Source: Actinoallomurus bryophytorum | GTDB taxonomy: Bacteria > Actinomycetota > Actinomycetes > Streptosporangiales > Streptosporangiaceae | Reading direction: 5' to 3' | NCBI RefSeq assembly: GCF_006716425.1 | Contig: NZ_VFOZ01000001.1 | Span: 62,001-126,000, forward strand | Length of the DNA: 64,000 nt | Shown here: positions 11,980 through 32,047 of the stretch, piece by piece | Numbering within the stretch: the first letter of the stretch is position 1 | Layout: every line of letters begins with the position of its first letter | The notes under the pieces: model-generated | The model's database searches: none | What the model saw: only the letters and a program-made list of their open reading frames with translations | What the model was told of the DNA's origin: nothing | Position numbers and translations under genes: made by a program

Positions 11980-12042
11980 TCCCCGCGAACAACGGCCCCG
12001 CCGCGGGGCCATCTCGCCATGCCCGAACGACGGAGGAACCCC

Positions 12043-17090: not shown

Positions 17091-17594
17091 TCACCGGTCC
17101 GCCTCCGGAGCTTCCTCGGCGATGATGTCCGCGGCGCGGTGCACCGCCTTGATGATGTTCTGGTACCCCGTGCACCGGCACAGGTTGCCGGAGATCCCCT
17201 CGAGGACCTCCTCGTCGCTCGGGCGCGGGTTGTCGCGCAGAAGCGCGGTCACCGTGCAGAGAAAGCCCGGCGTGCAGAAGCCGCACTGCAGGCCGTGGCT
17301 GTCCTGGAACGCCCGCTGCACCGGTGACAGGCCGCCCGCGTGACCGGCGGCGAGGCCCTCCACGGTGGTGATCTCGTGACCGGACGCGGTGACGGCGAAC
17401 ATCAGGCAGGAGCGGACCGGGTCGCCGTCGAACAGCACCGTGCAGCAGCCGCAGACGCCGTGCTCACAGCCCACATGGGTGCCGGTCAGGCCCAGGTCGT
17501 GGCGGAGGAAATCCGACAGGAGCCGCCGCGGCTCCGCCGAGGCGGTCCGCGGCACCCCGTTGACGATGAGACCGATCTCGCGGGCGCCGGTCAT
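17091..17594 (-). CDS. Molybdenum hydroxylase small subunit, two [2Fe-2S] clusters
   Basis: 167 residues from MTGAREIGLIVNGVPRTASA. The N-terminal plant-type ferredoxin motif is HVGCEHGVCGCCTVLFDGDPVRSC in two pieces: GCEHGVCGCC near residue 43, with a later Cys near 63. The C-terminal cluster motif is QCGFCTPGF near residue 104 and GNLCRCTGYQNI near residue 138. These Cys sets bind the two [2Fe-2S] clusters that pass electrons from Mo to FAD. It starts 10 bases after the stop of the FAD subunit, showing tight operon packing. An upstream extension of the frame into the FAD gene is a shadow. Confidence 0.95.
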   Translation of the reverse strand: MTGAREIGLIVNGVPRTASAEPRRLLSDFLRHDLGLTGTHVGCEHGVCGCCTVLFDGDPVRSCLMFAVTASGHEITTVEGLAAGHAGGLSPVQRAFQDSHGLQCGFCTPGFLCTVTALLRDNPRPSDEEVLEGISGNLCRCTGYQNIIKAVHRAADIIAEEAPEADR

Positions 17595-17604
17595 GGTCGT
17601 TGCC

Positions 17605-18468
17605 TCACAAAGCCTCCTGGGCGGCGGCTCGCAGCGTCCGCTCGGTGAGGACACCGGCGAGGTGGCGCCGGTAGTCGGCGCTCGCGTGGATGTCCTCGTC
17701 GGTGTCGATGTGGTCCCGCGCGTACGCCGCGGCGGCGGCCCAGTCGCAGGTGACCGGCGGCCGGTGCCCCAGGACCCCGGTCAGGTCCAGGACGAGCGGG
17801 GTAGCCGCCACGCTGAGGTAGCCCACCCTGGCCGAGCACACCCTCTGGTCGTCGTCCAGCGTGACGACCGCCGCCGCCCCGGCCATGGCGTAGTCCCCGT
17901 GCCGCCTGGCGACCTCGGCGAACGCGGTGCCGGTACGCGCGGGCAGCGCCGGGAAGAACGCCCCGGCCGCCAGCTCGCCCGGCCGCAGGGACGACTCCAG
18001 CGGCCCGGCGAAGAACTCCGCGGCCGGGATCGTCCGCCGCCCGCCCGACGACACCGCCTCGACCGTGCCCTCCAGGACGGCGAGCACGGCGGGCAGCTCG
18101 GCCGCCGGGTCGGCGTGCGCGAGGCTGCCGACGACCGTGCCCCGGTTGCGTACGACCGGGTGGGCGACCTGCCTCAGGGCCGCTCGCAGCAGCGGTTGCG
18201 CGTCCGCGGCCTCGGCGGAGTGCTCGACCCGCGTGTGCCGGGCCAGGGCGCCGACGCGTACACCCTCCCGCGTGACCTCGAGAGTGTCCAGCGAGGCCAC
18301 GCGGTTGATGTCGACCAGGTGGCCCGGGGCGGCCAGCCGCATGTTCAGCAGCGGGATGAGGCTCTGCCCGCCGGCCAGGACCTTGGCGTCCTCGGCCGTG
18401 CGTGCGAGGACCTCCAGGGCCTCCTCCAGGGTCTCCGGCGCGTGGTGTTCGAAGGCAGGCGGCTTCAC
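17605..18468 (-). CDS. Molybdenum hydroxylase FAD-binding medium subunit
   Basis: 287 residues from a GTG at 18468 (VKPPAFEHHAPETLEEALEV). The FAD-binding PCMH-type domain shows KVLAGGQSLIPLLNMRLAAP near residue 30, RNRGTVVGSLAHADPAAELP near residue 105 and the CoxM-like C-terminal domain after residue 175 (FAEVARRHGDYAMAGAAAVV). It accepts electrons from the small subunit and reduces the final acceptor. The gene starts 7 bases after the permease stop, so transporter and enzyme are expressed together. Confidence 0.94.
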   Translation of the reverse strand: MKPPAFEHHAPETLEEALEVLARTAEDAKVLAGGQSLIPLLNMRLAAPGHLVDINRVASLDTLEVTREGVRVGALARHTRVEHSAEAADAQPLLRAALRQVAHPVVRNRGTVVGSLAHADPAAELPAVLAVLEGTVEAVSSGGRRTIPAAEFFAGPLESSLRPGELAAGAFFPALPARTGTAFAEVARRHGDYAMAGAAAVVTLDDDQRVCSARVGYLSVAATPLVLDLTGVLGHRPPVTCDWAAAAAYARDHIDTDEDIHASADYRRHLAGVLTERTLRAAAQEAL

Positions 18469-18475
18469 GAGAGGC

Positions 18476-19876
18476 TCACTCCGCGCCCTCCGTGGCCGCC
18501 CGGCCGGGTGCGTCGGCGACGGTGTCGCGTTCGCCCGGCGCGATGATCCCGCCTCCGCCGTCGCGCGGGGACCGCTGGGCGGCGGCCAGGGCGTGGTAGC
18601 CGACCAGGACCGCGATCGTGCCGAGCGCGATGCCCTGCAGCGGGAAGTCATCGGTGATCTTGAGGGTGACGTTGCCGATGGCGAGGATGATGCCCGCGGC
18701 CACCGGTACGAGGTTGACCGGATCGCCGAAGTCCACGCGGTTCTCGATCCAGATCTTGGCGCCCAGCAGGCCGATCATGCCGTACAGGACCACGGTGATG
18801 CCGCCGAGCACCCCGCCGGGGGTCGCGGCCACCAGCGCGCCGAACTTCGGGCACAGGCCGAACAGGATCGCCACGACGGCCGCCACGAAGTACGCGGCGG
18901 TCGAGTAGATCCTCGTCGCGGCCATGACGCCGATGTTCTCGGCGTACGTGGTCGTCGGGGAGCCGCCGACCGCGCTGGCCAGGACCGTTCCGACGCCGTC
19001 CGCGGCGATGGCCCGGCCGAGGTAGGGGTCCAGGTCCGTCTCGGTCATCGCGGCGACCGCCTTGACGTGCCCGGTGTTCTCCGCGATCAGCGCGATGACG
19101 GCGGGCAGCGCGACCAGGATGGCCGAGGTCTTGAAGTCGGGGCCGTGCAGGTGCGGGAAGCCGAACCAGTCGGCCGCCTTGACGCTGTCGAAGTTCACCC
19201 GGAAATGCGTGCCCATCTTCCCGGCGCCGTCCACAGCGGTGATCTTGCCCGCGGTCTTGTCGAGCACCCACGACAGCGCGTACCCGAAGACCAGGCCGAG
19301 CAGGATGGCGATGCGGGCCCAGAAGCCGCGCAGCAATACCGCGCAGAACACCACGAAGGCCAGCGTGGCGAGCGCCACCCACTGGTCCTGGGGCCAGTAG
19401 ACGTTCGCGACGACCGGCGCGAGGTTGAAGCCGATCAGCATGACGACCGCGCCGGTGACGACCGGCGGGAAGATCCGGTGGATGACCCCGGCGCCCAGGA
19501 AGTGGATGATCACACCGACGATGCCCAGCACGAGACCGGCGATCAGAATCGCGCCGGTGACGTTGGCGGTCGAGCCGCCCGCCATGCGGATCGAGGCGAC
19601 GGCACCGACGAACGAGGCGCTGGTGCCCAGGTAGCTCGGCACCTTTCCGTTCACGATCAGCAGGAACAGGATCGTCGCGATGCCCGACATCATGATCGCG
19701 AGGTTCGGGTCCAGCCCCATCACGACCGGGAAGACGAACGTCGCGCCGAACATCGCGACGACGTGCTGGGCGCCGATGCCGACGGTCCTCCCCCACGAGA
19801 GCCGCTCGCCGGGTCCTACCACCTCGCCCGGCGCGAGACCGCGGCCGTCGCCGTGCAGTTTCCATCCGATCGCCAT
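18476..19876 (-). CDS. Nucleobase (uracil/xanthine) permease, NCS2 family
   Basis: 466 residues with about 12-14 hydrophobic segments. The ATG at 19876 follows GGAGGG. NCS2 landmarks are TVGIGAQHVVAMFGATFVFP near residue 28, LIAENTGHVKAVAAMTETDL (the conserved ENTG/substrate region) near residue 265 and the signature GSPTTTYAENIGVMAATRI near residue 305. Such proteins import uracil, xanthine or urate by proton symport across the inner membrane. Its position between pucR and the Mo-hydroxylase subunits argues for a purine or related heterocycle as substrate of the whole unit. Confidence 0.95.
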   Translation of the reverse strand: MAIGWKLHGDGRGLAPGEVVGPGERLSWGRTVGIGAQHVVAMFGATFVFPVVMGLDPNLAIMMSGIATILFLLIVNGKVPSYLGTSASFVGAVASIRMAGGSTANVTGAILIAGLVLGIVGVIIHFLGAGVIHRIFPPVVTGAVVMLIGFNLAPVVANVYWPQDQWVALATLAFVVFCAVLLRGFWARIAILLGLVFGYALSWVLDKTAGKITAVDGAGKMGTHFRVNFDSVKAADWFGFPHLHGPDFKTSAILVALPAVIALIAENTGHVKAVAAMTETDLDPYLGRAIAADGVGTVLASAVGGSPTTTYAENIGVMAATRIYSTAAYFVAAVVAILFGLCPKFGALVAATPGGVLGGITVVLYGMIGLLGAKIWIENRVDFGDPVNLVPVAAGIILAIGNVTLKITDDFPLQGIALGTIAVLVGYHALAAAQRSPRDGGGGIIAPGERDTVADAPGRAATEGAE

Positions 19877-19973
19877 GGCGGCCCTCCAGGATGTAGTTGC
19901 GGGCACGCTAGATCCGCGCCTCCCTGTGGACATCGTCGGAAACTGCCAAAGCGCGACAGTGGTGGTTGTGGTC

Positions 19974-21581
19974 TTAGATACCCCGCATGCGCAGTACGTG
20001 AAGCGCGAGGGTGAGGTTGAGGCGGAGGTGCGCGTCCTCGGTGAACGGGCCGAGCAGGCGTTCGAGCTTGCCGATCCGGTACCGCAGCGTGTTGTAGTGA
20101 AAATGCAGCCGCCGCGCCGTCTCGGCGACGTTGAGGTTGGTCTCCAGGAGTACCTGCAGCGTACGCCGCAGGTCGACGGCCTCCGCGTCGCCGTCTCCGG
20201 CGAGCTCGCCGAGGGTCTCCCCGACGAAGGCGTGCAGTTCGGCGGTGTCGTTGACCAGGCTCAGCAGCCGGAACACCCCGAGCTGGTCGAAGTGGGCGAC
20301 CGCCCCGTCGCCGTGGAGCTGGCGGCCCACGTGCACCGCCTTGACCGCCTGGTCGTAGGCGGACGGCAGCTCGCCGGGCACCGCCGCCGTCCGGCTCACG
20401 CCCACTGAGAACGTGCGGCCCGCGTCGGCGAAGACGGCGGTGGCGTCCTTGGCGAGCGCGGCGACGTCGCAGGCGTCCGCGCCGAGCACGGCGACCACCT
20501 CGTGGGAGAAGCCCGCGACCGCGCCCCTGCGGTCGCGGCGGCGCACCGCCGAGGTCAGCGCGGCGGTCAGCCGGTCCTGGAGCACGCGCTCGTCCGGTAC
20601 GCCGGCGGGCGCGCGATCCAGCTCCACGACGACCACGATGACGGGCCGGCCGAGGTCCCAGCCGAAGCTCGCGCTGTGCGCGACGACGTGCTCGTCGTCG
20701 CCGCCGGGACGTCCGGTGAGCACGTCGCGGAGGAAGTCCGCGCGGTACTTGCTCTCCACCGCCGACACGGCCTGCTGCTTGGTGATGACGAGCGCGGCGA
20801 CGGTGGCGGCGCGCTCCAGCATGCCGACCTCGGGCGCGGACTCGCCCACCGCGGCCATCCGGCCGTAGGTGTATCCGCCGGCCACCACGGGGACGACCGT
20901 GCGGTCGCCGTGCGCGCCGTACTCCTCCAGGCCCGGGTCGGCGGCGCGCAGCGCTGCCAGGTATCGCTCGCCGCCCGAGGCGACCAGCTCCCGGCCGTCG
21001 GAGTCGATCACCGCGACGGCGGCGCCGAGCAGGGCCGCGACCTCGTCGGTGATCTCCTGCAGGCCGCCGCCGCACAGCACGATCTGCACGAGCGCCCGGT
21101 GGACCTCCTCGGTGCGCGCGAGGATCGCGGCCTGCCGGTTGAGGATGTCGGTCAGCACCTGGTTGAGGATGTCGTCGAAGCCGACGTCGTTGGCCAGCAG
21201 GATCAGGGGGAAGCCCAGGCGGTCGGCCTGCTCGATCATCTCGACGGGCAGGCCGTCCAGGTAGCGGCCCAGCTTGATGGCGATCGCCGCCAGACCGCGC
21301 TCGTCCAGGTCGGCCACGAGGTGCCCGAGGGACTGGGGGGTGTTACGCAGCGGGTATCCCGTGGTGAGGAGCAGCTCGTGCGGCTTCACCCAGCCCAGGA
21401 TGTCCGGCACCTCCATCACGTTGAGGCGCTGGACGACCCGGCCGAGCCCGCTCTCGCCCGCGATCACCCGGGCCCCGGAGAGCGCGGGCACTCCGAGCAC
21501 CTCACCGACAGAAAGCCCGTACGTCAGTGTTCCGGTGCTCGCGAGGCGCAGTGTGGGGGGTAGGGGTTCGGTGAAGGACAT
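19974..21581 (-). CDS. PucR family purine-catabolism regulator
   Basis: 535 residues from MSFTEPLPPTLRLASTGTLT. Domains in order: N-terminal PucR-like domain (about 15-140: GLSVGEVLGVPALSGARVIA, LLLTTGYPLRNTPQSL), a central GGDEF-like region, and a C-terminal PucR helix-turn-helix (about 465-520: RRTLQVLLETNLNVAETARR, then LHFHYNTLRYRIGKLERLLG). PucR proteins activate purine or ureide catabolic genes in response to pathway metabolites. It is first in the leftward unit with permease and Mo-hydroxylase and divergent from the AllFGH-type genes, so it is the natural regulator of both. Start chosen at the ATG that gives the usual N-terminus. Confidence 0.93.
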   Translation of the reverse strand: MSFTEPLPPTLRLASTGTLTYGLSVGEVLGVPALSGARVIAGESGLGRVVQRLNVMEVPDILGWVKPHELLLTTGYPLRNTPQSLGHLVADLDERGLAAIAIKLGRYLDGLPVEMIEQADRLGFPLILLANDVGFDDILNQVLTDILNRQAAILARTEEVHRALVQIVLCGGGLQEITDEVAALLGAAVAVIDSDGRELVASGGERYLAALRAADPGLEEYGAHGDRTVVPVVAGGYTYGRMAAVGESAPEVGMLERAATVAALVITKQQAVSAVESKYRADFLRDVLTGRPGGDDEHVVAHSASFGWDLGRPVIVVVVELDRAPAGVPDERVLQDRLTAALTSAVRRRDRRGAVAGFSHEVVAVLGADACDVAALAKDATAVFADAGRTFSVGVSRTAAVPGELPSAYDQAVKAVHVGRQLHGDGAVAHFDQLGVFRLLSLVNDTAELHAFVGETLGELAGDGDAEAVDLRRTLQVLLETNLNVAETARRLHFHYNTLRYRIGKLERLLGPFTEDAHLRLNLTLALHVLRMRGI

Positions 21582-21769
21582 CGGTGCCCGATCTGCCGCA
21601 GTTGACCACCTATGCGCGAACAACCATGACAACAGACACGAACGATGGCAACCATCCTTGGCAGAATTATCCATACGGCGGGGCCCAGGCCCGGTCTACG
21701 TTCGCCACGAACGGCCATCATGAACACCTGCGACAGGCCACCACGAACCTTGACCACTGGGAGGGTCCG
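21582..21769. promoter_or_regulatory. Divergent control region between pucR and the AllFGH-type operon
   Basis: This 188-base space holds no convincing gene, although one frame is open through it. It is locally richer in A and T than its surroundings, with a TTGGCA...CCATAC-like stretch near 21655-21675 that could be a promoter. I found no clear long palindrome for PucR. The GGGAGG ribosome site for the rightward operon ends at 21764. Confidence 0.5.
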
Positions 21770-22711
21770 GTGCCGTTGTCCACCGCTCGGCGCAGACCGA
21801 GGCCTGCCCCCGAACACGGATCCCACGCCGTGACGGTCCCCACTCTGGCGGGCGCGGCGAGCCTCGGTGTGCGCACGGCGCTCAGCGGCCCCCGGCGCCA
21901 CGGCCGCGTGATCGCGGTCTTCCCGTCCGCCGTCTACCTGCAGGTGGCCCGGTCCCCCGAGCCGGCGGTGATAGCGCTGACCACCTCCGACGCCGTACGC
22001 CCGCCGAACGCGGTCGTCCTGGCCGTCCCGACGCGGCAGGAGCCGTTCCGGTCGGTACGCGAGGGCGACGAGACGTTCGTCGGTGACGGCTGCGTCCTCG
22101 TCGGCGGACGCCTGCGGGCGCGCGTGCGCCGCTGGTGGGACCCGACCCCGGTGCTCGGCCCGCTGTCGCTGGCCCGTCTCTCGCACGGCGAACGCGCCCT
22201 CGACGCCGTGACCGGGCCGTGGGGCCTGTCCGGCCACGCCGCGCCGAAGAACCTCGCGGACGCCTGCCTGGCCGGAGATCTCGCGCGGGCGGTCGACGCC
22301 GCCGAACGCATCGTCGGCCTCGGGCCCGGGCTGACCCCCAGCGGAGACGACGCGCTCGCCGGCCTGCTGCTGGCGCTGCGCCTGCTCGGCGGGGCCGTAC
22401 CCGGCGGAGGGCGTGCGGTGTGGCTCGCCGACTGGCTCGGCGCCGCCGTCACCGCCCACGCCGGTGAGCGCACCACCTCGCTCGCCGCCACCCTGCTGCA
22501 CTGCGCCGCACGCGGCCAGGCGAGCATGGAGGCGGCGGCCGTCCTGCGCGGCATCGCCGGGCAGGACCCGCTGGTCCCGGCCACGCGGCGCCTCCTCGCC
22601 ACCGGCCACACCTCGGGCGCCGACCTGGCCTGGGGTCTGCTTCTCGGCTGCCGGTCCGCCCTGGCACTGAGCGCGGCGCACCCGCCTCGCCGCGGTGGCA
22701 GCGGCACGTGA
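21770..22711 (+). CDS. DUF2877 protein, AllH-like subunit of oxamate carbamoyltransferase
   Basis: 313 residues from a GTG at 21770, five bases after a GGGAGG site; longer upstream starts would add unlike-family sequence. The DUF2877 core contains LARAVDAAERIVGLGPGLTP, SGDDALAGLLLALRLLGG and ERTTSLAATLLHCAARGQAS, which match the E. coli YlbF/AllH family. AllF, AllG and AllH of E. coli are known to form oxamate carbamoyltransferase, which turns oxalurate plus phosphate into oxamate and carbamoyl phosphate in allantoin breakdown. Here all three families are adjacent in the order H-F-G. The stop overlaps the FdrA-like start (GTGA). Function is inferred by family and synteny. Confidence 0.85.
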   Translation: MPLSTARRRPRPAPEHGSHAVTVPTLAGAASLGVRTALSGPRRHGRVIAVFPSAVYLQVARSPEPAVIALTTSDAVRPPNAVVLAVPTRQEPFRSVREGDETFVGDGCVLVGGRLRARVRRWWDPTPVLGPLSLARLSHGERALDAVTGPWGLSGHAAPKNLADACLAGDLARAVDAAERIVGLGPGLTPSGDDALAGLLLALRLLGGAVPGGGRAVWLADWLGAAVTAHAGERTTSLAATLLHCAARGQASMEAAAVLRGIAGQDPLVPATRRLLATGHTSGADLAWGLLLGCRSALALSAAHPPRRGGSGT

Positions 22712-24126
22712 GCGAAGAAGAACGAGGGAGCACTCTGATCAGGAACGAACTCGTGGAGGTGCGGTCCGGCGCGTACCACGACTCGGTCACGCTCATGCGG
22801 GCCGGCCGCCGTCTGGCCGAGCGCCCCGGCGTGACCGCGGCGCTGACCGCCATGGCCACCACGCTCAACGTCGATCTTCTGGCCGAGATGGGCTTCACAC
22901 CGCCGGACGGCACGCGACCGGATGACCTGCTCGTCGCGATACGCGCCGACGACGCGGACGCGCTGGAGGCCGCGCGCGTCACCGTGGACGAGCTGCTCTC
23001 CACCCGGTCCGCGCCCCGCGCGTTCGGCGTGCCGGCTCCTCCGCGCACCACCGGGTCGGCCGCACGCCGGATCGACGCCACGGTCGCGCTCGTCTCGGTG
23101 CCGGGACCGTACGCCTTCGCCGAAGCCATGGACGCCCTGGACGCCGGCCTCAACGTCATGGTCTTCAGCGACAACGTGCCCATCGAGCACGAGCTCGAAC
23201 TCAAGGAGACGGCGGCGCGGCGCGGCCTGCTGGTGATGGGCCCCGACTGCGGCACCGCCGTGGTCGGCGGCGTCGGGCTCGGCTTCGCCAACGTCGTGCG
23301 TCCTGGCCCGATCGGTCTGGTCGCCGCCTCCGGGACCGGCGCACAGCAGGTGATGAGCCTGCTCGACGAGGCGGGTGCCGGGGTCAGCCACGTACTCGGC
23401 GTCGGCGGCCGCGACCTGTCCGCCGAGATCAGCGGCCGGTCCACGCTCCAGGCGCTGCGGGCGCTCGACGCCGATCCGGCCACCGAGCTCATCGTCGTCG
23501 TCTCCAAGCCGCCGGCGCCCGAGGTCGGGGACCTGATACGTGCCGCCGCGCGGCGGCTGGCCACTCCGGTCCGGTTCGGGCTGCTCGGCGAGGGCGGTGA
23601 CGACCTGACGAAGGTCGTCGAGGACGCCCTGGAGACCATCGGCGTCCCGGTGCCCCCCTGGCCGTCCTGGCTTCCCTCCCGGCGGGTCCATCCCCCACGG
23701 CCGGGTCCGCTCCGTGGCCTGTTCGCGGGCGGGACGCTGTGCGAGGAGGCGGCGCTCATCGCCGGCTCGACCCCGAACGAGATGACCGACCTCGGCGACG
23801 ACCGCTACACCCGCGGACGCGCCCACCCGATGATCGACCCCACACTGCGCCTCGAACGCCTGGCGGCCGAGACGACCGGTGGTGACGCCGCGGTCGTGCT
23901 GATCGACGTCGTCCTCGGCCACGGCTCCGAGCCCGACCCGGCGGCGGCACTGGTCCCGGTGATCCAGGAGGCCAAGGTCCCGGTGGTCGTCTCCCTGTGC
24001 GGGACCTCCGGCGACCCGCAGGGCCGGGACCGGCAGGCCGAGGCCCTCGCCGCGGCCGGCGCGGCGGTGTACGCCTCCAACGCCGCCGCCACCCGCCATG
24101 CCGTCTCACTCGCCGAAGGATCCTGA
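22708..24126 (+). CDS. FdrA-like protein, AllF-like subunit of oxamate carbamoyltransferase
   Basis: 472 residues, GTG start overlapping the DUF2877 stop by four bases. The fold is succinyl-CoA-synthetase-like: LVSVPGPYAFAEAMDALDAG (CoA-binding-type Rossmann region), RRGLLVMGPDCGTAVVGGVG with the GPDCGT loop near residue 180, GLVAASGTGAQQVMSLLDEA and a C-terminal ligase-like domain (GTLCEEAALIAG, VLIDVVLGHGSEPDP). This is the FdrA/AllF family. It is about 80 residues shorter than E. coli FdrA, which I recall as roughly 555 residues. It is central in a translationally coupled set, so subunit assembly with its neighbours is likely. Confidence 0.88.
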   Translation: MSEEERGSTLIRNELVEVRSGAYHDSVTLMRAGRRLAERPGVTAALTAMATTLNVDLLAEMGFTPPDGTRPDDLLVAIRADDADALEAARVTVDELLSTRSAPRAFGVPAPPRTTGSAARRIDATVALVSVPGPYAFAEAMDALDAGLNVMVFSDNVPIEHELELKETAARRGLLVMGPDCGTAVVGGVGLGFANVVRPGPIGLVAASGTGAQQVMSLLDEAGAGVSHVLGVGGRDLSAEISGRSTLQALRALDADPATELIVVVSKPPAPEVGDLIRAAARRLATPVRFGLLGEGGDDLTKVVEDALETIGVPVPPWPSWLPSRRVHPPRPGPLRGLFAGGTLCEEAALIAGSTPNEMTDLGDDRYTRGRAHPMIDPTLRLERLAAETTGGDAAVVLIDVVLGHGSEPDPAAALVPVIQEAKVPVVVSLCGTSGDPQGRDRQAEALAAAGAAVYASNAAATRHAVSLAEGS

Positions 24127-24128
24127 TC

Positions 24129-25571
24129 ATGAGTACGCCCTCAGCGAGGGAGCCGCACGAGAACGGCGACGGCGGGCTCGGCGGTCTTCTCACCCGTGAG
24201 GTAAAGGTCGTCGCGGCCGGCGCCTCCGTACTGGCCGACGCCCTCGGCGAGCAGGCCGTGCCGGTGGAGACGGTCGACTGGCGGCCGCCGGCGGGCCCCG
24301 CCGGGTACACCGGCCTCGCCGAGGATCTCGCCGTGGTCATGGGCGACCGGCGCCGTGCGGCGGCCGACGCCACGGCCGTCGGGCGGCTGCTCGGCGCCCG
24401 GCCGCACCTGGTCGACGTCCGTCCCGCCCATGAGGTCCTCGACCTCGAACCCGGTTCGTTCCTGCACGCCGGGCCGCCACTGACCTGGGAACGCGCGTCG
24501 GGACCGATGCGCGGCGCGCTGATCGGCGCAGCGATCTTCGAGGGCCTGGCCGAAACGCCCGAAGACGCGGAACTCCTGCTGCGGACGGCGCCGCTCGAGC
24601 CCTGCCACCACCACGGCACGGTCGGCCCGATGGCGGGTGTCGTGAGCCCGTCGATGTGGATGTTCGTGGTCGAGGACGCCGAGAACGGCGGCACGGCGTA
24701 CTGCTCGCTCAACGAGGGCCTCGGCAAGGTGCTGCGCTACGGCGCGTACGGCCCCGAGGTGATCGAACGGCTGCGCTGGATGGCCGGCTCGCTCGGCCCG
24801 GTGCTGCGGGAGGCGGTACGCGCCCACGGCCCGGTGGACCTGCGCGCGATCATGGCGCAGGCGCTGCACATGGGCGACGAGCTGCACAACCGCAACCGCG
24901 CGGCGACCTCGTTGTTCGTCCGCGAACTGGCGGGCGACCTGGCCGAGGCCGGCGGCGTGGAGGCGCTGCGGTTCGCGGCCGGCAACGACCACTTCTTCCT
25001 CAACCTGGCGATGGCGGCGGGCAAGGTGAGCGCCGACGCCGCTCGCGACGTGCCCGGCTCGTCCCTGGTCGTGGCGATGGCCCGCAACGGCACCGACTTC
25101 GGGATCCAGGTCTCCGGGACGGGCGACCGATGGTTCACCGGGCCCGCCGGCGTCCCCGACGGTCTCTACCTGGGCTCGTACGGTCCCGGCGACGCCAACC
25201 CCGACATCGGTGACTCGACGATCACCGAGACGACCGGCGTGGGCGGTTTCGCGATGGCGGCGGCGCCCGCGATCGTGCGGTTCATCGGCGGCGAGGTGCC
25301 CGACGCGCTCGCCGCGACACAGCGGATGTACGAGATCACCTTGGCCGAGCACCCGGCCTTCCAGGTGCCGATCCTGGACTTTCGCGGCACGCCCGTGGGC
25401 ATCGACGTCACCAAGGTCGTCCGTACCGGGCTGCTGCCGGTCGTCAACACCGGCATCGCCGGGCGGGTCGCCGGCACCGGCCAGGTCGGCGCGGGTCTGG
25501 TCTCCCCGCCGGCCGAGGTGTTCACCCAGGCTCTGCACGCACTCGCCGAGCAGGCGACAATCGCATCATGA
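24129..25571 (+). CDS. DUF1116 protein, AllG-like subunit of oxamate carbamoyltransferase
   Basis: 480 residues, starting two bases after the FdrA-like stop. DUF1116 landmarks are MRGALIGAAIFEGLAETPED, LEPCHHHGTVGPMAGVVSPS (a His-rich stretch near residue 160), MGDELHNRNRAATSLFVREL near residue 250 and TTGVGGFAMAAAPAIVRFIG near residue 370. This is the YlbE/AllG family. With the two previous genes it completes the AllFGH set. No carbamate kinase (AllK) gene is in the window, so carbamoyl phosphate made here would have to go to another kinase or to biosynthesis. Confidence 0.88.
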   Translation: MSTPSAREPHENGDGGLGGLLTREVKVVAAGASVLADALGEQAVPVETVDWRPPAGPAGYTGLAEDLAVVMGDRRRAAADATAVGRLLGARPHLVDVRPAHEVLDLEPGSFLHAGPPLTWERASGPMRGALIGAAIFEGLAETPEDAELLLRTAPLEPCHHHGTVGPMAGVVSPSMWMFVVEDAENGGTAYCSLNEGLGKVLRYGAYGPEVIERLRWMAGSLGPVLREAVRAHGPVDLRAIMAQALHMGDELHNRNRAATSLFVRELAGDLAEAGGVEALRFAAGNDHFFLNLAMAAGKVSADAARDVPGSSLVVAMARNGTDFGIQVSGTGDRWFTGPAGVPDGLYLGSYGPGDANPDIGDSTITETTGVGGFAMAAAPAIVRFIGGEVPDALAATQRMYEITLAEHPAFQVPILDFRGTPVGIDVTKVVRTGLLPVVNTGIAGRVAGTGQVGAGLVSPPAEVFTQALHALAEQATIAS

Positions 25572-26473
25572 CGCTCTCGGGTAACCAGTACGAGATCTTC
25601 GCGGGGCCGTACGAGGCGATCGTGACAGAACAGGGCGCGAGCCTGCGCGCGCTCCTCCACGACGGCCGGCCGCTGATCCTGTCCCACGACGCCGACGAGC
25701 CGGTGCCCGCCGCGGCCGGACAGCTGCTCGCGCCCTGGCCCAACCGGATCGACCACGGCCGCTACTCCTTCGGCGGCGAGTCCCACTCCCTGCCGATCAA
25801 CGAGGGCGACCTCGACAACGCCATCCACGGCCTCGTCCGGTTCGAGTCGTGGGGGGCCGCCGAGCACGAGCGGCACCGCGTGCGGCTCACCCACCGGCTG
25901 CTCGGCCATTCCGGCTATCCGTTCCGGCTCGACCTCACCGTGGAGTACACCCTCGACGCCGCCGGCGGGCTGACCGTGCGCCAGTCGGCGCGCAACGCCG
26001 GCTCACGCGTCGCGCCGTACGGGCACGGCGCGCACCCCTACCTGACGCTCGGGCGGCCGCTGGACGAGTGCGAGCTGCTCGTCACCGCCGGCCGCTACCT
26101 GGAGATCGACGAGCGTGCCATCCCGGAGCCGGAGACCCGCGAGGTCGCGGGCACGCCGTACGACTTCCGCGCCCCGCGGCGCATCGGCGAAACGGCGATC
26201 AACAACCCGTACACCGCGCTGGACCGCGACGGTGACGGACGCGCGTGGGTGCGGCTGCGCGACGGCGAGCGGTCGGTCGCGCTGTGGGCCGGCGAGGGCC
26301 ATCCCTGGCTGGAGATCTACACCCGCGACGAGGTGATGGACGAGACCCGGCGCACGGGCCTCGGCGCCGAGCCGATGACCTGCCCGCCGAACTCCTTCGC
26401 GACCGGCATCGACCTGATCGCGCTCAAGCCGGGCGAGGAGACGAGCGGTATGTGGGGAATCACCGCGGACTGA
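25568..26473 (+). CDS. Aldose 1-epimerase (mutarotase) family protein
   Basis: 301 residues, start overlapping the DUF1116 stop by four bases (ATGA). The mutarotase beta-sandwich is recognisable by LLAPWPNRIDHGRYSFGGES (the conserved PWPNR) near residue 55, NAIHGLVRFESW near residue 87, the catalytic-His region RVAPYGHGAHPYLTL near residue 153 and LEIYTRDEVMDETRRTGLGA near residue 255. Members equilibrate sugar anomers. Why one is coupled to AllFGH-type genes is unclear: it may act on a ureide or sugar-linked intermediate such as a nucleoside sugar, or be a hitch-hiker. The family call is firm; the role here is open. Confidence 0.88.
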   Translation: MTLSGNQYEIFAGPYEAIVTEQGASLRALLHDGRPLILSHDADEPVPAAAGQLLAPWPNRIDHGRYSFGGESHSLPINEGDLDNAIHGLVRFESWGAAEHERHRVRLTHRLLGHSGYPFRLDLTVEYTLDAAGGLTVRQSARNAGSRVAPYGHGAHPYLTLGRPLDECELLVTAGRYLEIDERAIPEPETREVAGTPYDFRAPRRIGETAINNPYTALDRDGDGRAWVRLRDGERSVALWAGEGHPWLEIYTRDEVMDETRRTGLGAEPMTCPPNSFATGIDLIALKPGEETSGMWGITAD

Positions 26474-26553
26474 CCCCGTCGTCGTTGATCACCGGGCTCG
26501 CGGGGGTTCCGGTCGGTAACGTGTGCCGCAGTGTCTCTGGGAGGGAACCCGCG

Positions 26554-27762
26554 GTGAAGTTGACTCTGTCCACGCTCGATGATCTGAGCGCGCGCGTCGA
26601 GGAGGCGCGGGCCGAGCACGCCCGCCGGTATCCCGGCGATCCGGCGGAGCGGCAGCCGGTGCACACCGTCTACGTGCCGGCGGATCGCTTCACCGCGTCC
26701 GCCCCTGCCGACCTCGGCACCGAGGCGCTGCGGCTGCTGAACACCCACGTCCCGGACGGTGCCGCGGTCGCCACCGCGTTCGGCGTCGACGGCTCGCTCG
26801 GCGACGCCGTACGGGAGCGGGTCGCCGCCAAGCTGGCCCGCGAGCCGGTCGAGGACATACGGATCGACTTCGAGGACGGCTACGGCGTACGTGACGACGA
26901 GGAGGAGGACGCCCACGTCGAACGTGCCGTGGAGGAGGTCGCGCAGGCGTACGAGGCGCGGCGCCTGCCCTACTACTGGGGGCTGCGGGTCAAGTCGTTC
27001 GCCGACGGCGGGCACGCACGCAGCATGCGCACGCTGGACGGTTTCCTCACCGGGCTGGCCGAGCGGCTGGGCAAGCTGCCGGGCGGCTTCGTGGTGACCC
27101 TGCCGAAGATCATCGCGCCGCAGCACGTTGAGGTCTTCGCGGAGTTCCTGGCGCGGTTCGAGGAGGAGATCGGCCTGCCGGAGGGCATGCTGCGCTTCGA
27201 GATCCAGGTCGAGACGACGGAGTCGGTCGCCGGCCTGCGCGCGGTCGTGGACGCCGGCGGCAGCCGGCTGAGCGCGGCGCACTTCGGCGTCTACGACTAC
27301 ACGGCCGCGCTGGGCCTGCCGCCGTCCGAGCAGCGGCTGGACCATCCGGCCTGTGAGTACGCGCGTCACGTCATGCAGGTGACCCTGGCCGGCACCGGCG
27401 TGCGGCTCTCGGACGGCTCGACCAACATCGTCCCGGCCGGCGATGACACGGCGGACGTGCACCGGGCGTGGCGGAGACACGCGGCGCTCGTGCGTTATTC
27501 ACTGCTGCACGGCTACAACCAGGGCTGGGACCTGCACGCGGCGCACCTGGTCAGCAGGTTCGCCGCCGTGTACGGGTTCCACCTGACCGGCCTGGACGAG
27601 GCGATCGAACGCGTCCGGGCATGGAAGGACGCCGATGGTGCGGACACACGGCCGGACGGCGTGCTCGACGAGCCGGCGACCATCCGTGCGCTCACCGCAC
27701 GGTTGCGCCGCGCGGTCGACTGCGGCGCCGTCGACGCCGGCGCCGTCAATCTTCGGAACTGA
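26554..27762 (+). CDS. DUF6986 / HpcH-HpaI aldolase-like protein
   Basis: 402 residues from a GTG after GGGAGGG. It resembles TIM-barrel CitE/HpcH lyases. The carboxylate-binding region reads VEDIRIDFEDGYGVRDDEEE (acidic cluster near residue 110), a later barrel strand is MLRFEIQVETTESVAGLRAV with the typical Glu, then LSAAHFGVYDYTAALGLPP and a C-terminal helical cap. Family proteins of this DUF occur in actinomycete purine-degradation clusters, and its position behind the AllFGH-type genes fits that. A C-C lyase or hydrolase acting on a glyoxylate-type product is plausible but unproven. Its 3' end overlaps the convergent small gene by 17 bases. Confidence 0.8.
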   Translation: MKLTLSTLDDLSARVEEARAEHARRYPGDPAERQPVHTVYVPADRFTASAPADLGTEALRLLNTHVPDGAAVATAFGVDGSLGDAVRERVAAKLAREPVEDIRIDFEDGYGVRDDEEEDAHVERAVEEVAQAYEARRLPYYWGLRVKSFADGGHARSMRTLDGFLTGLAERLGKLPGGFVVTLPKIIAPQHVEVFAEFLARFEEEIGLPEGMLRFEIQVETTESVAGLRAVVDAGGSRLSAAHFGVYDYTAALGLPPSEQRLDHPACEYARHVMQVTLAGTGVRLSDGSTNIVPAGDDTADVHRAWRRHAALVRYSLLHGYNQGWDLHAAHLVSRFAAVYGFHLTGLDEAIERVRAWKDADGADTRPDGVLDEPATIRALTARLRRAVDCGAVDAGAVNLRN

Positions 27763-28182: not shown

Positions 28183-28773
28183 TTATGCGGGGTCGATATC
28201 GAACCGCCTCAGATCCTCGGGCGTGTCGATGTCGCGGGGATCGGCGACGTCGTCACACGGGACGGAGACCACGATGTCAGGGCGTGCGCGTAGGAACTCC
28301 CGCGCCCCCACATCGCCCTCGGCGTACTCCGCCACCTCGGCGAAGTGCTCACGGGCGATGAGGACCGGATTGCGGGGACGTCCCTCGTAGGTCGCCACCG
28401 CGACGCGCGCCCCGGCGTCGTACGCCGCGCGGAGCCGGAGCACGGCCTCGGCCGAGACGTTCGGCTGGTCGACCAGGGCGATCACCACGGCCGGGCAGTC
28501 GGGCGCCAGCGCGGACAGGCCGGCGCGCAGCGAGGAGCCCATACCGGTGCGCCAGCCGGGGTTGTACACGACGACGGCGCCCGCCACGTCGACGCGTGCC
28601 GCGCCGGTGACCACGACGATCGGGGTGCATCCCGCCTCGTGCAGCATGCGCACCCCGCGGTCCGTCAGGCGTACGCCGCCGATCTCGACGAGCGCCTTCG
28701 GCGTGCCGAGCCGCCGCCCCTCACCCGCCGCGAGCAACAGCCCGGCGGGCGCTCCCGCATGCCTCGTCTCCAT
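28183..28773 (-). CDS. MobA-like (MocA-type) nucleotidyltransferase
   Basis: 196 residues from METRHAGAPAGLLLAAGEGR. The N-terminal LLLAAGEGRRLGTPKALVEI is the NTP-binding motif of the MobA/MocA family; VVIALVDQPNVSAEAVLRL near residue 100 is the metal-binding DQP region, and RPRNPVLIAREHF and CDDVADPRDIDTPEDL follow the family pattern. MocA attaches CMP to molybdopterin to give the cytosine dinucleotide used by xanthine/CO-dehydrogenase-type enzymes. The xdhC, VWA and AAA+ genes lie just upstream on the same strand, so it most likely finishes the cofactor of the Mo-hydroxylase at 14.6-18.5 kb. Confidence 0.87.
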   Translation of the reverse strand: METRHAGAPAGLLLAAGEGRRLGTPKALVEIGGVRLTDRGVRMLHEAGCTPIVVVTGAARVDVAGAVVVYNPGWRTGMGSSLRAGLSALAPDCPAVVIALVDQPNVSAEAVLRLRAAYDAGARVAVATYEGRPRNPVLIAREHFAEVAEYAEGDVGAREFLRARPDIVVSVPCDDVADPRDIDTPEDLRRFDIDPA

Positions 28774-28935
28774 GCTGGGAGAGCGTATCCACGACAGGGG
28801 CGGGCGACGGGCCGAAACACTGATCTTTAGCGGCATATGGCACCCGCGAGTGCCGGGATCTACGCCTGCGGTCCGTCTTCACGCGTCCAGCGGCGACCTC
28901 CCGGTGTGCCCCGGCCGTCGGATCGGCGGCAGTCG

Positions 28936-30039
28936 TCAGGTGCCGTGGATGCGGCCGCCGGTGTCCGTGAGGGCCTGGCCGGTGCCGCCCCAGCGGAGCT
29001 GGATGAGCTCGGCCGCGATCGAGACCGCGGTCTCCTCAGGTGTACGGGCGCCGAGGTCGAGGCCGATCGGCGAGCGGAGCCGGGCGATCTCCTTCTCGGT
29101 GACCCCCACCTCGCGCAGGCGCTCGAGCCGGTCCTCGTGGGTGCGGCGCGAACCCATCGCCCCGACGTAGCCGGCGCGGGTGCGCAGCGCCACCTCCAGG
29201 AGCGGCACGTCGAACTTCGGGTCGTGGGTGAGGACGCAGATCACCGTGCGCTCGTCCACGTCGCCCTCGGACTCGGTGAGGAACTTGTGGGGCCACTTCA
29301 CCACGACCTCGTCGGCCTCGGGGAACCGCTTGGGGGTGGCGAAGACGGGCCGGGCGTCGCAGACGGTCACGTGGTAGCCGAGGAACTTGCCGACCCGTGC
29401 CACCGCCGCGGCGAAGTCGATCGCGCCGAAGACCAGCATGCGGGGCGGCGGGGCGAAGGAGTGCACGAAGACGGCGAGCTCGTCCAGCCGCCGCTCGCCG
29501 TGCCTGCCGTACCGCCGGATCCCGGTGGTGCCCTGGGCGAGCATGCCGCGGGTGTCGTCGTCGACGGCCTCGTCCAGCCGGTCGAGGCCGAGTGAGCCCT
29601 CTGAGCGGTCCGGCCAGATGACGCGGCGGACGCCGACCTCGCCCGGCCCCTCGATGACGGTCGCGATCGCGACCGGCTCGTGCCGGTCGATCGAGGCCTT
29701 CACCTCGGCGAACAGGGGAAACGTCTGAGGCCCGATCGGCTCCACGAGAATGTCGAGGATGCCGCCGCAGGTCAGCCCGACGGCGAACGCGTCGTCGTCA
29801 CTGACGCCGTACCGCTGCACGACGGCGCTGCCGGAGGCCATGACCTCCTGCGCGAGCTCGTACACCGCGCCCTCGACGCAGCCGCCGGACACGCTGCCCA
29901 CGGCCTCGCCCTCACCGGACACGGCCATCGAGGCCCCGGCGGGCCGTGGGGCGCTGCGGAAGGTGTTGACCACGGTGGCCAGCCCGAACGTCTCGCCCTC
30001 GTCGTACCATTTGCCGATCTCTCGAAGGACGTCACGCAT
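28936..30039 (-). CDS. XdhC family molybdenum-enzyme maturation protein
   Basis: 367 residues. The N-terminal XdhC/CoxI domain shows TFGLATVVNTFRSAPRPAGA and SVSGGCVEGAVYELAQEVM, and LTCGGILDILVEPIG near residue 90. The C-terminal Rossmann domain shows PRMLVFGAIDFAAAVARVGK near residue 197 and ICVLTHDPKFDVPLLEVALR, then AGYVGAMGSRRTHEDRLERL. XdhC binds the Mo cofactor and inserts it, after sulfuration, into xanthine-dehydrogenase-type apoenzymes. The start overlaps the VWA gene by 8 bases, so coxD-coxE-xdhC are read together. Confidence 0.93.
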   Translation of the reverse strand: MRDVLREIGKWYDEGETFGLATVVNTFRSAPRPAGASMAVSGEGEAVGSVSGGCVEGAVYELAQEVMASGSAVVQRYGVSDDDAFAVGLTCGGILDILVEPIGPQTFPLFAEVKASIDRHEPVAIATVIEGPGEVGVRRVIWPDRSEGSLGLDRLDEAVDDDTRGMLAQGTTGIRRYGRHGERRLDELAVFVHSFAPPPRMLVFGAIDFAAAVARVGKFLGYHVTVCDARPVFATPKRFPEADEVVVKWPHKFLTESEGDVDERTVICVLTHDPKFDVPLLEVALRTRAGYVGAMGSRRTHEDRLERLREVGVTEKEIARLRSPIGLDLGARTPEETAVSIAAELIQLRWGGTGQALTDTGGRIHGT

Positions 30040-31129
30040 TTCCGATCACCCCTGCCAGTTCTTCCAGTGCGGCCAGGCTGTGACCGGCCACAAAGTCGTC
30101 AACGTACGGAAGCGCCGCGAGCATCCCGCCTGTGAGTGGTTCGTACCCAGGTTGGGCTTTGTGCGGGTTGGACCACACGACCCGGTGCGCGAGCCGGTGC
30201 AGCCTCTCCATCTGGTGGCCGAGGAGCGTCGTGTCCCCGCGTTCCCAGCCGTCGGAGGCGATGACCACGATCGCACCGCGCGCCATGCCCCGCTGGCCGA
30301 AGCGGTCGAGGAACTCCTTCAGCTCCTCGCCCAGCCGCGTGCCGCCGCTCCAGTCCGGGATCGCCGCGGACACCGCCGTCATCGCCGCGTCCGGCTCCCG
30401 GTGCCGCAGCTCCCTGGTCACCCGGGTCAGCCGGGTGCCGGCGCTGAAGACCTCCGTCGAACGCGGCGCCGAACGCACGGCCGCGTGCGCGAACCTCAGG
30501 AGCACGTCGGCGTACGGGCTCATCGAGCCGCTCACGTCCACGATCAGGACCACGCGCCGCGGCCGTGTGCGGTGCGCGCGGTAGTGCAGTCCGGAGATCT
30601 CCCCGCCGCGGCGCAGGATCGACCGGACCGTACGGTGCGCGTCGAGCCGTCCCCGGTGGCGCGCGGTGAACCTCCGCGACCGCCGCTGCGCGGTGACGTC
30701 GTCGAGCAGGGCGAGCAGGCGGTGCACCTCGGCGCGTTCGGCCGGGCTGAGGCGGGCCACGTCGCGCAGCCGCAGGACCTCGATCTCGCTGGCGGTCGCG
30801 ACGGAGACGTCACCGGGCCGGTCGTCACCGGCCGTGCCGGGCGTGGCGGCGTGCCGCACCACGGTCACCGGAGGCGGGGCGGTGCGCCGCACCGTGGCGG
30901 TGTCGCCGGAGAAGTACGCGGCGAAGCAGCGGTCATAGCGCGGCAGGTCGGCGGGGTCCGCGCACATGGTGAGCCGCCCGGCCCAGTAGACGTCGCGGGC
31001 GTCGAGCACGTCGAGGTGGCCGACCGCACCGATCATCGCCTGGACGCGCTCGGGGTCGGCGCCGACGCCGGCGGCCCGCAGCGTACGGGCGAAGCCGGTG
31101 AGCGTCTCGACGACGTCCCGCGGCGCCAT
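30032..31129 (-). CDS. CoxE-like VWA domain protein
   Basis: 365 residues. The C-terminal von Willebrand A domain starts near residue 190 with RRVVLIVDVSGSMSPYADVL, whose DVSGS is the metal-ion-dependent adhesion site. A Thr/Asp pair follows (WSGGTRLGEELKEFL; IVVIASDGWERGD). The N-terminal part is helical, as in CoxE. CoxE and its AAA+ partner CoxD form a chaperone that matures the sulfurated molybdenum-containing active site of CO dehydrogenase and its relatives. It begins 3 bases after the CoxD-like stop, and its end overlaps xdhC. Confidence 0.92.
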   Translation of the reverse strand: MAPRDVVETLTGFARTLRAAGVGADPERVQAMIGAVGHLDVLDARDVYWAGRLTMCADPADLPRYDRCFAAYFSGDTATVRRTAPPPVTVVRHAATPGTAGDDRPGDVSVATASEIEVLRLRDVARLSPAERAEVHRLLALLDDVTAQRRSRRFTARHRGRLDAHRTVRSILRRGGEISGLHYRAHRTRPRRVVLIVDVSGSMSPYADVLLRFAHAAVRSAPRSTEVFSAGTRLTRVTRELRHREPDAAMTAVSAAIPDWSGGTRLGEELKEFLDRFGQRGMARGAIVVIASDGWERGDTTLLGHQMERLHRLAHRVVWSNPHKAQPGYEPLTGGMLAALPYVDDFVAGHSLAALEELAGVIGNA

Positions 31130-31132
31130 GCC

Positions 31133-32047
31133 TCAGGCCCCGTTGAACAGCGCGCCGATGCCGCCCGCGACCACCCGCTCGGTGTCCTCGCGGTACTTCA
31201 GCACCGCGCCCAGTGTCACCGCGGCGATGTCCGGGTCCAGGTCGCGTGCGCCCAGCGCGACGAGCGCCTCGGTCCAGTCGAGGCTCTCGGCGATCCCCGG
31301 GGCCTTGAGCAGGTCCAGCTTCCGCAGCCGGCCCGCGGCGCCCGCCACCTGGCGTACGAGACTCTCGGTGGCGTCGGGCATCCGCCGCCGGATGATCGCC
31401 ACCTCGCGGTCGAAGGCCGGGTGCTCCAGCCAGTGGTACAGGCAGCGGCGTTTGAGCGCGTCGTGCACCTCACGGGTGCGGTTGGAGGTGACGACGACGA
31501 CCGGCGGGCGCTCGGCCCTGATCGTGCCGAGCTCGGGGACGGAGATGGTGAAGTCGCTCAGCACCTCCAGCAAGAACGCCTCGAACTCGTCGTCGGCGCG
31601 GTCGATCTCGTCGACGAGCAGCACGGCGGGGCGCTCCTCGGTCGAGGTCTCCAGGGCCTGCAGCAGCGGCCGGGAGACGAGGAAGCGCCGGTCGTACAGC
31701 TCGGACTCGAGGCGCTCGACGTCGGTGACACCGGCCGCCTCGGCGGCCCGCAGGTGCAGCAGCTGGCGGGGGAAGTCCCAGTCGTACAGCGCCTGCGCGG
31801 CGTCCAGGCCCTCGTAGCACTGGAGCCGGATCAGCGGCACGTCCAGGACGGCGGCGAGCGTCTTGGCCAGCTCGGTCTTGCCGACGCCCGCCTCCCCTTC
31901 GAGGAACAGCGGCCTGCGCATGCGCAGGCCGAGGAAGCAGGCGGTCGCGAGTCCTTCGTCGGACAGGTACGCGTGTTTCTCGAGAGCCTCGCTGAGGGCC
32001 TGCGGCGACGCGAAGTCCGATGTCGGGATTGACGTGGTATGCGGCAC
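31133..32047 (-). CDS. CoxD-like MoxR family AAA+ ATPase
   Basis: 304 residues from a GTG. Walker A is FLEGEAGVGKTELAKTLAAV near residue 50, Walker B is PAVLLVDEIDRADDEFEAFL near residue 140, and sensor 1 is VVVTSNRTREVHDALKRRCL near residue 185 with an arginine finger in RRRCL style. This matches CoxD/MoxR ATPases, which work with VWA partners. It is first in the coxD-coxE-xdhC group and probably powers assembly of the molybdenum hydroxylase encoded upstream. It is convergent with nothing; the Nudix gene precedes it on the same strand with a 50-base gap. Confidence 0.93.
   Translation of the reverse strand: MPHTTSIPTSDFASPQALSEALEKHAYLSDEGLATACFLGLRMRRPLFLEGEAGVGKTELAKTLAAVLDVPLIRLQCYEGLDAAQALYDWDFPRQLLHLRAAEAAGVTDVERLESELYDRRFLVSRPLLQALETSTEERPAVLLVDEIDRADDEFEAFLLEVLSDFTISVPELGTIRAERPPVVVVTSNRTREVHDALKRRCLYHWLEHPAFDREVAIIRRRMPDATESLVRQVAGAAGRLRKLDLLKAPGIAESLDWTEALVALGARDLDPDIAAVTLGAVLKYREDTERVVAGGIGALFNGA

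Follow-up and report, generated by a model that had tools for sequence, protein, structure and literature searches.

AllFGH-type carbamoyltransferase genes of Actinoallomurus bryophytorum and their probable role in oxidative pyrimidine breakdown

Results

Organization of the locus

The DNA analyzed in the present study, hereafter called the window, is a stretch of 64,000 nucleotides from Actinoallomurus bryophytorum (G000:C1:62001-126000; genome of 9.47 Mb in three contigs). It contains three adjacent genes, allH, allF, and allG, which represent all three subunit families of the Escherichia coli carbamoyltransferase AllFGH. These genes are divergent from pucR, which heads a unit for an NCS2 nucleobase permease and a molybdenum (Mo) hydroxylase (Table 1). 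An original prediction, made from the window alone, had described this arrangement; it was confirmed by Pfam and recurs in relatives.

Identities to the E. coli proteins were 47% for AllG, 37% for AllF, and 32% (across 128 residues) for AllH. AllF matched the FdrA structure (PDB 3dmy) with 226 bits and the NCBIfam FdrA model with 374 bits, which is under the cut-off of 433. AllG matched PDB 3clq with 371 bits. The frame of allH is open from 21584; its likely start is the GTG at 21770, with a GGAGGG site upstream, and not 21582. The few-base overlaps noted in the prediction were found between allH and allF (4 bases), but not between allF and allG, which are separated by a 2-base gap.

The permease exceeded the cut-off of the NCS2 superfamily model (299 bits) and was under those of the RutG (380 bits; cut-off, 759) and uracil permease (279 bits) models. 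Its score with the xanthine model pbuX was 171 bits. It carries the motif ENIG, as do E. coli RutG and UraA, whereas XanQ has QNNG; ENIG was present in 63 of 63 related permeases. By this motif (ENIG and not QN.G), the protein is of the pyrimidine type.

AYXCSFR is the active-site motif in CoxL of form I aerobic carbon monoxide (CO) dehydrogenase. The large subunit of the Mo hydroxylase scored 1507 bits with NCBIfam NF040766 (aerobic CO dehydrogenase group 5; cut-off, 950); however, AYXCSFR is absent from this protein and from 76 related open frames, and we rejected the label for this reason. PYRGAGR is present in the window protein and in all 76 frames. The naming by NCBIfam is probably a misannotation that touches many genomes. 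The best solved structures were 6-hydroxypseudooxynicotine dehydrogenase (455 bits) and quinoline 2-oxidoreductase (448 bits). The latter hydroxylates the carbon adjoining the ring nitrogen, as the oxidation of uracil would require. Sixty-four of 81 loci contain a homologue of the flavin adenine dinucleotide (FAD) subunit; some loci do not extend far enough to include it.

The region between pucR and allH contains a conserved 20-base element, TTGGCANNNTTNTCCRTACG, which we derived by eye from the sequences of these loci. It is present in 48 of 70 loci, and the copy at window position 21658 is the sole exact match in the entire genome. This element is likely a promoter or operator.

Table 1. 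Features of the window (positions are those of the window).
Feature	Position	Strand	Evidence or remark
HyuB, part inside the window	1..1393 (whole match G000:C1:61600-63393)	-	homology
HyuA (hydantoinase/oxoprolinase A), recurrent partner	1487..3499	-	PF01968/PF05378
Mo-hydroxylase large (molybdopterin) subunit, proposed uracil (thymine) dehydrogenase large subunit	14612..17023	-	PF02738/PF20256/PF01315
Mo-hydroxylase 2Fe-2S subunit	17091..17654	-	PF01799, PF00111; start uncertain
Mo-hydroxylase FAD subunit	17605..18468	-	position and homologues; start by inspection, frame open to 18651
NCS2 nucleobase permease, ENIG motif (pyrimidine type)	18476..19933	-	PF00860
PucR-family regulator	19974..21581	-	PF07905, PF13556, PF17853
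Element TTGGCANNNTTNTCCRTACG, pucR-allH intergenic region	21658..21677	+	likely promoter/operator
allH (DUF2877) subunit	21770..22711	+	PF11392, 87 bits (Pfam)
allF (FdrA) subunit	22708..24126	+	PF00549 FdrA/CoA-ligase fold, 109 bits (Pfam)
allG (DUF1116) subunit	24129..25571	+	PF06545, 315 bits (Pfam)
Aldose-1-epimerase-like gene, local addition	25568..26473	+	PF01263 Aldose_epim, 158 bits
DUF6986 gene, local addition	26554 (approximate start)..27762	+	PF22484, 464 bits
MobA-like nucleotidyltransferase (Mo cofactor maturation)	28183..28836	-	PF12804
XdhC-family maturation factor	28936..30039	-	PF13478, PF02625
CoxE-like VWA protein (Mo hydroxylase maturation)	30032..31129	-	PF05762
MoxR/CoxD-like AAA ATPase	31133..32047	-	PF07728

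Barbiturase and carbamate kinase genes

A gene of the AtzD/barbiturase family (PF09663) lies outside the window, approximately 31 kb left of the operon, at G000:C1:51177-52283 (family match, C1:51186-52268). A carbamate kinase gene (C1:52288-53289) adjoins it in the same direction, 8.7 kb left of the window, and both genes are at most 11 kb from the window's left edge. The absences listed in the prediction concern the window only; the genome as a whole does have a kinase. The kinase scored 353 bits with TIGR00746 (cut-off, 358) and 313 bits with PRK12352 (cut-off, 266). Its gene is at most 140 bases from the amidohydrolase gene in 15 of 21 PF09663 genomes (one kinase being fragmented) and 3.3 kb away in one more.

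Among solved structures, Barbiturase 5hwe was the best match of the amidohydrolase (599 bits), and cyanuric acid hydrolases reached at most 325 bits. The published signature of the Bar group (group VI) is Asn195, His321, Lys325, Val345, and Ser/Ala346 in AtzD numbering, and that of cyanuric acid hydrolases is Arg195, Thr321, Arg325, Gly345, and Gly346 (PMC3758960). All five Bar residues are present in the amidohydrolase (N194, H324, K328, V348, and A349). An alignment of 32 rows, which include the query, repeat copies of its own gene (L089, L090, and L112), and some genomes twice, contained 17 NHKVA, 3 NHKVS, 5 NHKVG, 5 RTRGG, 1 NYKGG, and 1 fragment. At its last position, NHKVG differs from the published signature, which has Ser/Ala there. 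The RTRGG rows include two from actinobacteria, G088 and G229, and both genomes lack AllG. The score with the NCBIfam cyanuric acid amidohydrolase model was 477 bits (cut-off, 360); however, we rejected this label on the signature residues, which are not RTRGG. The NYKGG row is a divergent family member (L126, G219) that directly adjoins a Mo hydroxylase, and its genome has no AllG match.

Conservation and co-occurrence in relatives

An AllG search of genome contigs returned more loci than the best 80 that were kept. Sixty-seven of these 80 were scorable on the left, with at least 7 kb there. AllH and a divergent pucR were found in all 67, a separate allF and the permease in 63 each, and the Mo large subunit in 61. 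All five occurred together in 55 of the 67, a count in which the loci where a single open frame covers AllF and AllG (L045, L054, L062, and L068) were scored as misses. Such a fusion fits a stable complex.

Co-occurrence is given below as both/first only/second only/neither, with p values from Fisher tests. In 41 relatives, AllG and PF09663 yielded 20/1/1/19 (p=1.6e-9), and the Mo hydroxylase (matches of at least 70% identity) followed both PF09663 (20/0/1/20, p=8e-11) and AllG (19/1/2/19, p=1.7e-8). The single PF09663 genome without the Mo hydroxylase, G028, is 77% complete. AllG and carbamate kinase (>300 bits) gave 19/2/6/14 (p=9e-5). Counted by genus, AllG and PF09663 gave 15/1/0/16 (p=5.7e-8), and within the genus Actinoallomurus, AllG, PF09663, and the Mo hydroxylase occur in the same five of eight genomes. 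In contrast, allantoinase over the cut-off, which served as a control, was not correlated with AllG (15/6/9/11, p=0.12); in the genome of the window, it is encoded on another contig (C2:608974). AllD was over the cut-off in 0 of the 41 relatives and had no match whatever in the window's own genome. A supply of oxalurate via AllD, with allantoin genes nearby, was thus not found.

The association extends to the phylum. AllG was present in 36 and PF09663 in 18 of 296 genomes, with both in 14 (p=2.6e-11). All 14 were among the 21 genomes with the close AllG type (E<1e-89), and none among the 15 with the distant type. PF09663 was also present in 20 of 20 genomes picked from the 80 AllG loci; these may overlap the 41 relatives, and G334 and G006 share coordinates and are apparently the same genome.

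Physical linkage in other actinobacteria

AllG and PF09663 are on one contig in 10 of the 20 relatives with both (22-65 kb apart) and in 11 of the 14 such genomes in the phylum sample (6-44 kb apart). Eight distant actinobacteria (L091-L097 and L098/L099) were selected from the stretches of eleven genomes for an AllG-PF09663 distance under 18 kb. Five of them (L091, L093, L094, L097, and L098/L099) contain the full cluster, namely, pucR, the amidohydrolase, the NCS2 permease, carbamate kinase, allH, allF, allG, and the Mo trio. In L092, only the Mo large and FeS genes are missing, and the FAD gene is at the edge of the stretch. In L095, a contig edge lies beside allG and the NCS2 permease was not seen; the kinase, pucR, and NCS2 permease were not seen in the stretch of L096. 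AllFGH and the kinase, approximately 31 kb apart in A. bryophytorum, are thus in one cluster in L091-L095, L097, and L098/L099.

Eighteen genomes, chosen for AllG or PF09663, were compared over limited stretches, and the following counts are lower bounds: allG and allF, 17 each; FAD subunit, 16; amidohydrolase, FeS subunit, and Mo large subunit, 15 each; allH and kinase, 13 each; pucR and NCS2 permease, 12 each; CoxG, 11; hyuA and hyuB, 10 each; and CoA-transferase III, 6. HyuB was mostly 75-82% identical across the compared clusters, and that of the window is 78% identical to HyuB in the distant cluster of G113. No kinase was found within the 50-kb stretch of N. gerenzanensis. The further conserved frames listed without a label resembled, by eye, antisense shadows or general genes.

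The CoA-transferase III gene of A. bryophytorum (G000:C1:58461-59617; L112:8461-9617) is split over two frames and is a pseudogene or an assembly error. Its counterparts in N. gerenzanensis (L110) and G027 (L129) are not split.

AllFGH-type genes in other contexts

Genes for FdrA, DUF1116, a ring-opening amidohydrolase, and carbamate kinase adjoin on plasmids of Klebsiella quasipneumoniae (L107) and Aminobacter sp. SR38 (L108). On Klebsiella pneumoniae pHS08204 (L109), the order is amidohydrolase, NCS2 permease, DUF2877, FdrA, DUF1116, and arcC. The amidohydrolases of these plasmid modules carry the cyanuric acid signature RTRGG, and AllFGH of the plasmids may cleave carboxybiuret or biuret. 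Among the matches listed, 18 records hold both genes (AllG and the amidohydrolase), within 4.5 kb in 15; most are enterobacterial plasmids with identical spacing and, thus, not independent. The atzF gene is near the module on L107 and L109.

AllF-AllG, HyuA-HyuB, and the Mo hydroxylase form one cluster in L115 (G071), L116 (G195), and L117 (G173), whose genomes have no PF09663 match. A kinase without an amidohydrolase is seen at other AllG loci (e.g., L113, L114, and Peptoclostridium). In Peptoclostridium acidaminophilum (L135), PucR, two xanthine permeases, a cysteine hydrolase, AllHFG, and arcC are in a row. A tree of 41 AllG proteins placed the barbiturase-linked, plasmid, HyuAB-linked, and E. 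coli sequences in separate groups; support was weak (0.24) for all 25 barbiturase-linked sequences taken together and 0.96 for 23 of them.

Discussion

The present results suggest that the AllFGH-type carbamoyltransferase of A. bryophytorum probably acts in oxidative pyrimidine breakdown, and not in allantoin breakdown. A role in uracil breakdown is the most likely because the allHFG genes travel with those for barbiturase, carbamate kinase, a Mo hydroxylase, and a uracil-type permease. The original prediction of an AllFGH-type enzyme wired to PucR and a Mo hydroxylase is supported, and so is that of a route different from the one in E. coli and probably aerobic. Its assignment of a purine or ureide substrate does not agree with the uracil-type permease, the lack of AllD over the cut-off in the 41 relatives, or the strong correlation of AllG with the barbiturase family instead of allantoinase.

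We infer the following enzyme activities and substrates from gene families and gene context. Uracil (or thymine) would be imported by the NCS2 permease and oxidized by the Mo hydroxylase to barbiturate (or 5-methylbarbiturate). Barbiturase would open the ring to ureidomalonate, and AllFGH would convert ureidomalonate and phosphate to carbamoyl phosphate and malonamate. We propose this phosphorolysis because ureidomalonate is oxalurate plus one CH2 group. Carbamate kinase would then use carbamoyl phosphate to form ATP, with the release of CO2 and ammonia. The predicted recovery of carbamoyl phosphate thus stands as a plausible step; however, the formation of ATP is likelier than the biosynthetic use that had been suggested because the kinase gene adjoins that for barbiturase. 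HyuAB and the CoA-transferase III are candidates for the conversion of (methyl)malonamate to (methyl)malonyl-CoA, in what may be the last steps. No dedicated malonamate amidase was seen among the listed genes common to at least 3 of the 18 compared genomes, and HyuAB is the sole candidate for this function. PucR is expected to govern the divergent promoters.

Several observations weigh against this proposal. The published fate of ureidomalonate is malonate and urea, formed by ureidomalonase (PMC3758960). A weight-matrix scan did not find TTGGCANNNTTNTCCRTACG before the amidohydrolase, kinase, or hyu genes. Since the barbiturase and kinase genes are also distant from the operon, their co-regulation with it is unsupported. 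PF09663 is absent from 1 of the 21 relatives with AllG and from 22 of the 36 AllG genomes in the phylum sample (15 with the distant AllG type and 7 with the near type), while relative G027 has PF09663, the kinase, and the Mo hydroxylase, but no AllG. The kinase is not near the amidohydrolase in 5 of 21 genomes. The Mo large subunit is nearly as close to CoxL (8uem, 433 bits) as to its best structural matches, and the CoA-transferase of this genome is in two frames. The Fisher tests ignore phylogeny. Furthermore, G071, G173, and G195 join AllFG to the Mo hydroxylase and HyuAB without PF09663, so that another ring opener or substrate is possible.

The enzyme may instead be an ordinary oxamate carbamoyltransferase that acts on oxalurate from purine or allantoin breakdown, as the three shared families, their identities to the E. 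coli subunits, the PucR-type regulator, and the allantoinase of the genome may suggest. We consider this unlikely. The allantoinase and AllD tests largely reject a purine or allantoin route: allantoinase is encoded on another contig and does not track AllG, 6 of 21 AllG genomes have none over the cut-off, and AllD is not over the cut-off in any of the 41 relatives. In the AllG tree, moreover, the E. coli protein is not a member of the barbiturase-linked group, with the support values given above for that group. A different cyclic ureide is quite unlikely: the Mo hydroxylase and HyuAB would produce a ring similar to hydantoin or parabanate and open it, AllFGH would cleave the product, and barbiturase would be a parallel branch. 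The clusters of G071, G173, and G195, the presence of HyuA and HyuB in 10 of the 18 compared genomes, and the identity of HyuB are consistent with this scheme; however, the Mo hydroxylase tracks PF09663 nearly perfectly in relatives.

A cyanuric acid (s-triazine) route, with a cyanuric acid hydrolase opening the ring, would explain the NCBIfam match of the amidohydrolase and the hydrolases of this type in plasmid AllFGH modules. We regard it as very improbable because all 25 rows of at least 69% identity (repeat copies and the query included) have N-H-K-V at the first four signature positions and none has R-T-R-G-G; moreover, the Mo hydroxylase and uracil-type permease have no evident role in such a route. 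It is similarly hard to credit that the linkage is due to chance or is a taxonomic artefact of one lineage. Most of the genomes are related actinobacteria, for which tests that ignore phylogeny are a concern; however, the genes switch jointly between presence and absence within the genus and across genera, and the gene order varies between lineages, whereas the gene set is largely kept.

With regard to the wider family, we lean slightly towards AllFGH being a general acylurea phosphorolase (R-CO-NH-CO-NH2 + phosphate -> R-CO-NH2 + carbamoyl phosphate), and not an enzyme specific to oxamate, because carboxybiuret, ureidomalonate, and oxalurate are all acylureas. The plasmid modules that pair AllFGH with hydrolases of the cyanuric acid type also suggest this. 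Ring openers that make acylureas, such as barbiturase, cyanuric acid hydrolase, and perhaps HyuAB, as well as the allantoin route of E. coli, would each have recruited AllFGH and carbamate kinase. If this is the case, each ring would yield one ATP, which is lost with a hydrolase, and the lineage of the window would represent the pyrimidine branch of the family.

AllFGH of E. coli catalyzes the reaction oxalurate + phosphate <-> oxamate + carbamoyl phosphate (PMC11326118). The system in A. bryophytorum resembles E. coli AllFGH/AllK in its three subunit families, in the presence of a carbamate kinase in the same genome, and in the proposed chemistry of acylurea + phosphate -> amide + carbamoyl phosphate (PMC11326118). 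In contrast to E. coli, no AllD was detected, no allantoin genes were found adjoining, and the genes are linked to barbiturase, a Mo hydroxylase, a uracil-type permease, and PucR. AllG is also on another branch of the tree, and AllF has 472 residues instead of 555.

The oxidative pyrimidine pathway described in Rhodococcus consists of pyrimidine oxidation, barbiturase, and ureidomalonase (PMC3758960). A barbiturase with the group VI signature is shared with the present genome, and the Mo hydroxylase is a plausible pyrimidine oxidizer. However, the hydrolytic last step to urea and malonate described there is apparently replaced by phosphorolysis and carbamate kinase. In nitrifiers, allFGHK beside biuret/triuret genes was interpreted as oxalurate degradation (PMC12625717); as in our clusters, AllFGH and carbamate kinase are beside ureide genes other than those for allantoin. 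The main text of that study does not contain "barbitur", and no atzD is reported in it for the metagenome-assembled genomes of nitrifiers (PMC12625717). In Rubrobacter, a ureidoglycine carbamoyltransferase and carbamate kinase were proposed (PMC4016543), a further case of a carbamoyltransferase and kinase replacing a ureide hydrolase in an actinobacterium. That enzyme belongs to the aspartate transcarbamoylase (ATCase) family, and its proposed substrate is allantoate, in the course of purine breakdown (PMC4016543), whereas AllFGH has no similarity to the ATCase family (PMC11326118). Among the best-ranked matches in open-licence PMC text, we found no paper that joins barbiturase or barbiturate with AllFGH, FdrA, or DUF1116; the closest was PMC12625717.

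The oxidative pyrimidine pathway has been known since the 1950s (PMC3758960). The genes compiled in the present study are a near-complete candidate set for this pathway. To our knowledge, its first enzyme, uracil/thymine dehydrogenase, is still without a gene or sequence, and the Mo hydroxylase genes are now candidates for this old activity. Phosphorolysis would be an energy-saving substitute for the last hydrolytic step, and ureidomalonate, if confirmed, would be a new addition to the substrates of AllFGH, an enzyme that was identified only recently. Furthermore, in actinomycetes of this kind, a gene annotated as CO dehydrogenase or oxamate carbamoyltransferase may in fact serve pyrimidine breakdown.

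The two genes appended downstream of allG had been included in the predicted functional unit and gene order. The epimerase-like gene overlaps allG by 4 bases, and DUF6986 starts at approximately 26554, 80 bases past the end of the epimerase gene. In 72 loci scorable downstream of allG, the epimerase gene adjoins allG in 23, DUF6986 is at most 3 kb away in 23, and both are beside allG in 19. We regard them as a local addition because they are near allG in this minority of loci. DUF6986 (>380 bits) is present in 13 of 21 relatives with AllG and 6 of 20 without (13/8/6/14, p=0.062), including AllG-negative genomes of the same genus (G001, G005, and G007); with this weak tracking, a pathway role for the two genes is unsupported. 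DUF6986 is at most 1.2 kb from allantoinase in G014, G015, G035, and G036. It has weak similarity to malate synthase and HpcH/HpaI and may act on glyoxylate.

Regarding other genes of the window, the MobA-like, XdhC, CoxE-like, and MoxR/CoxD-like proteins are, by family, putative maturation factors of the Mo hydroxylase. A FAD monooxygenase at window positions 12019-13539 resembles rifampin monooxygenases (387 bits, under the cut-off of 800).

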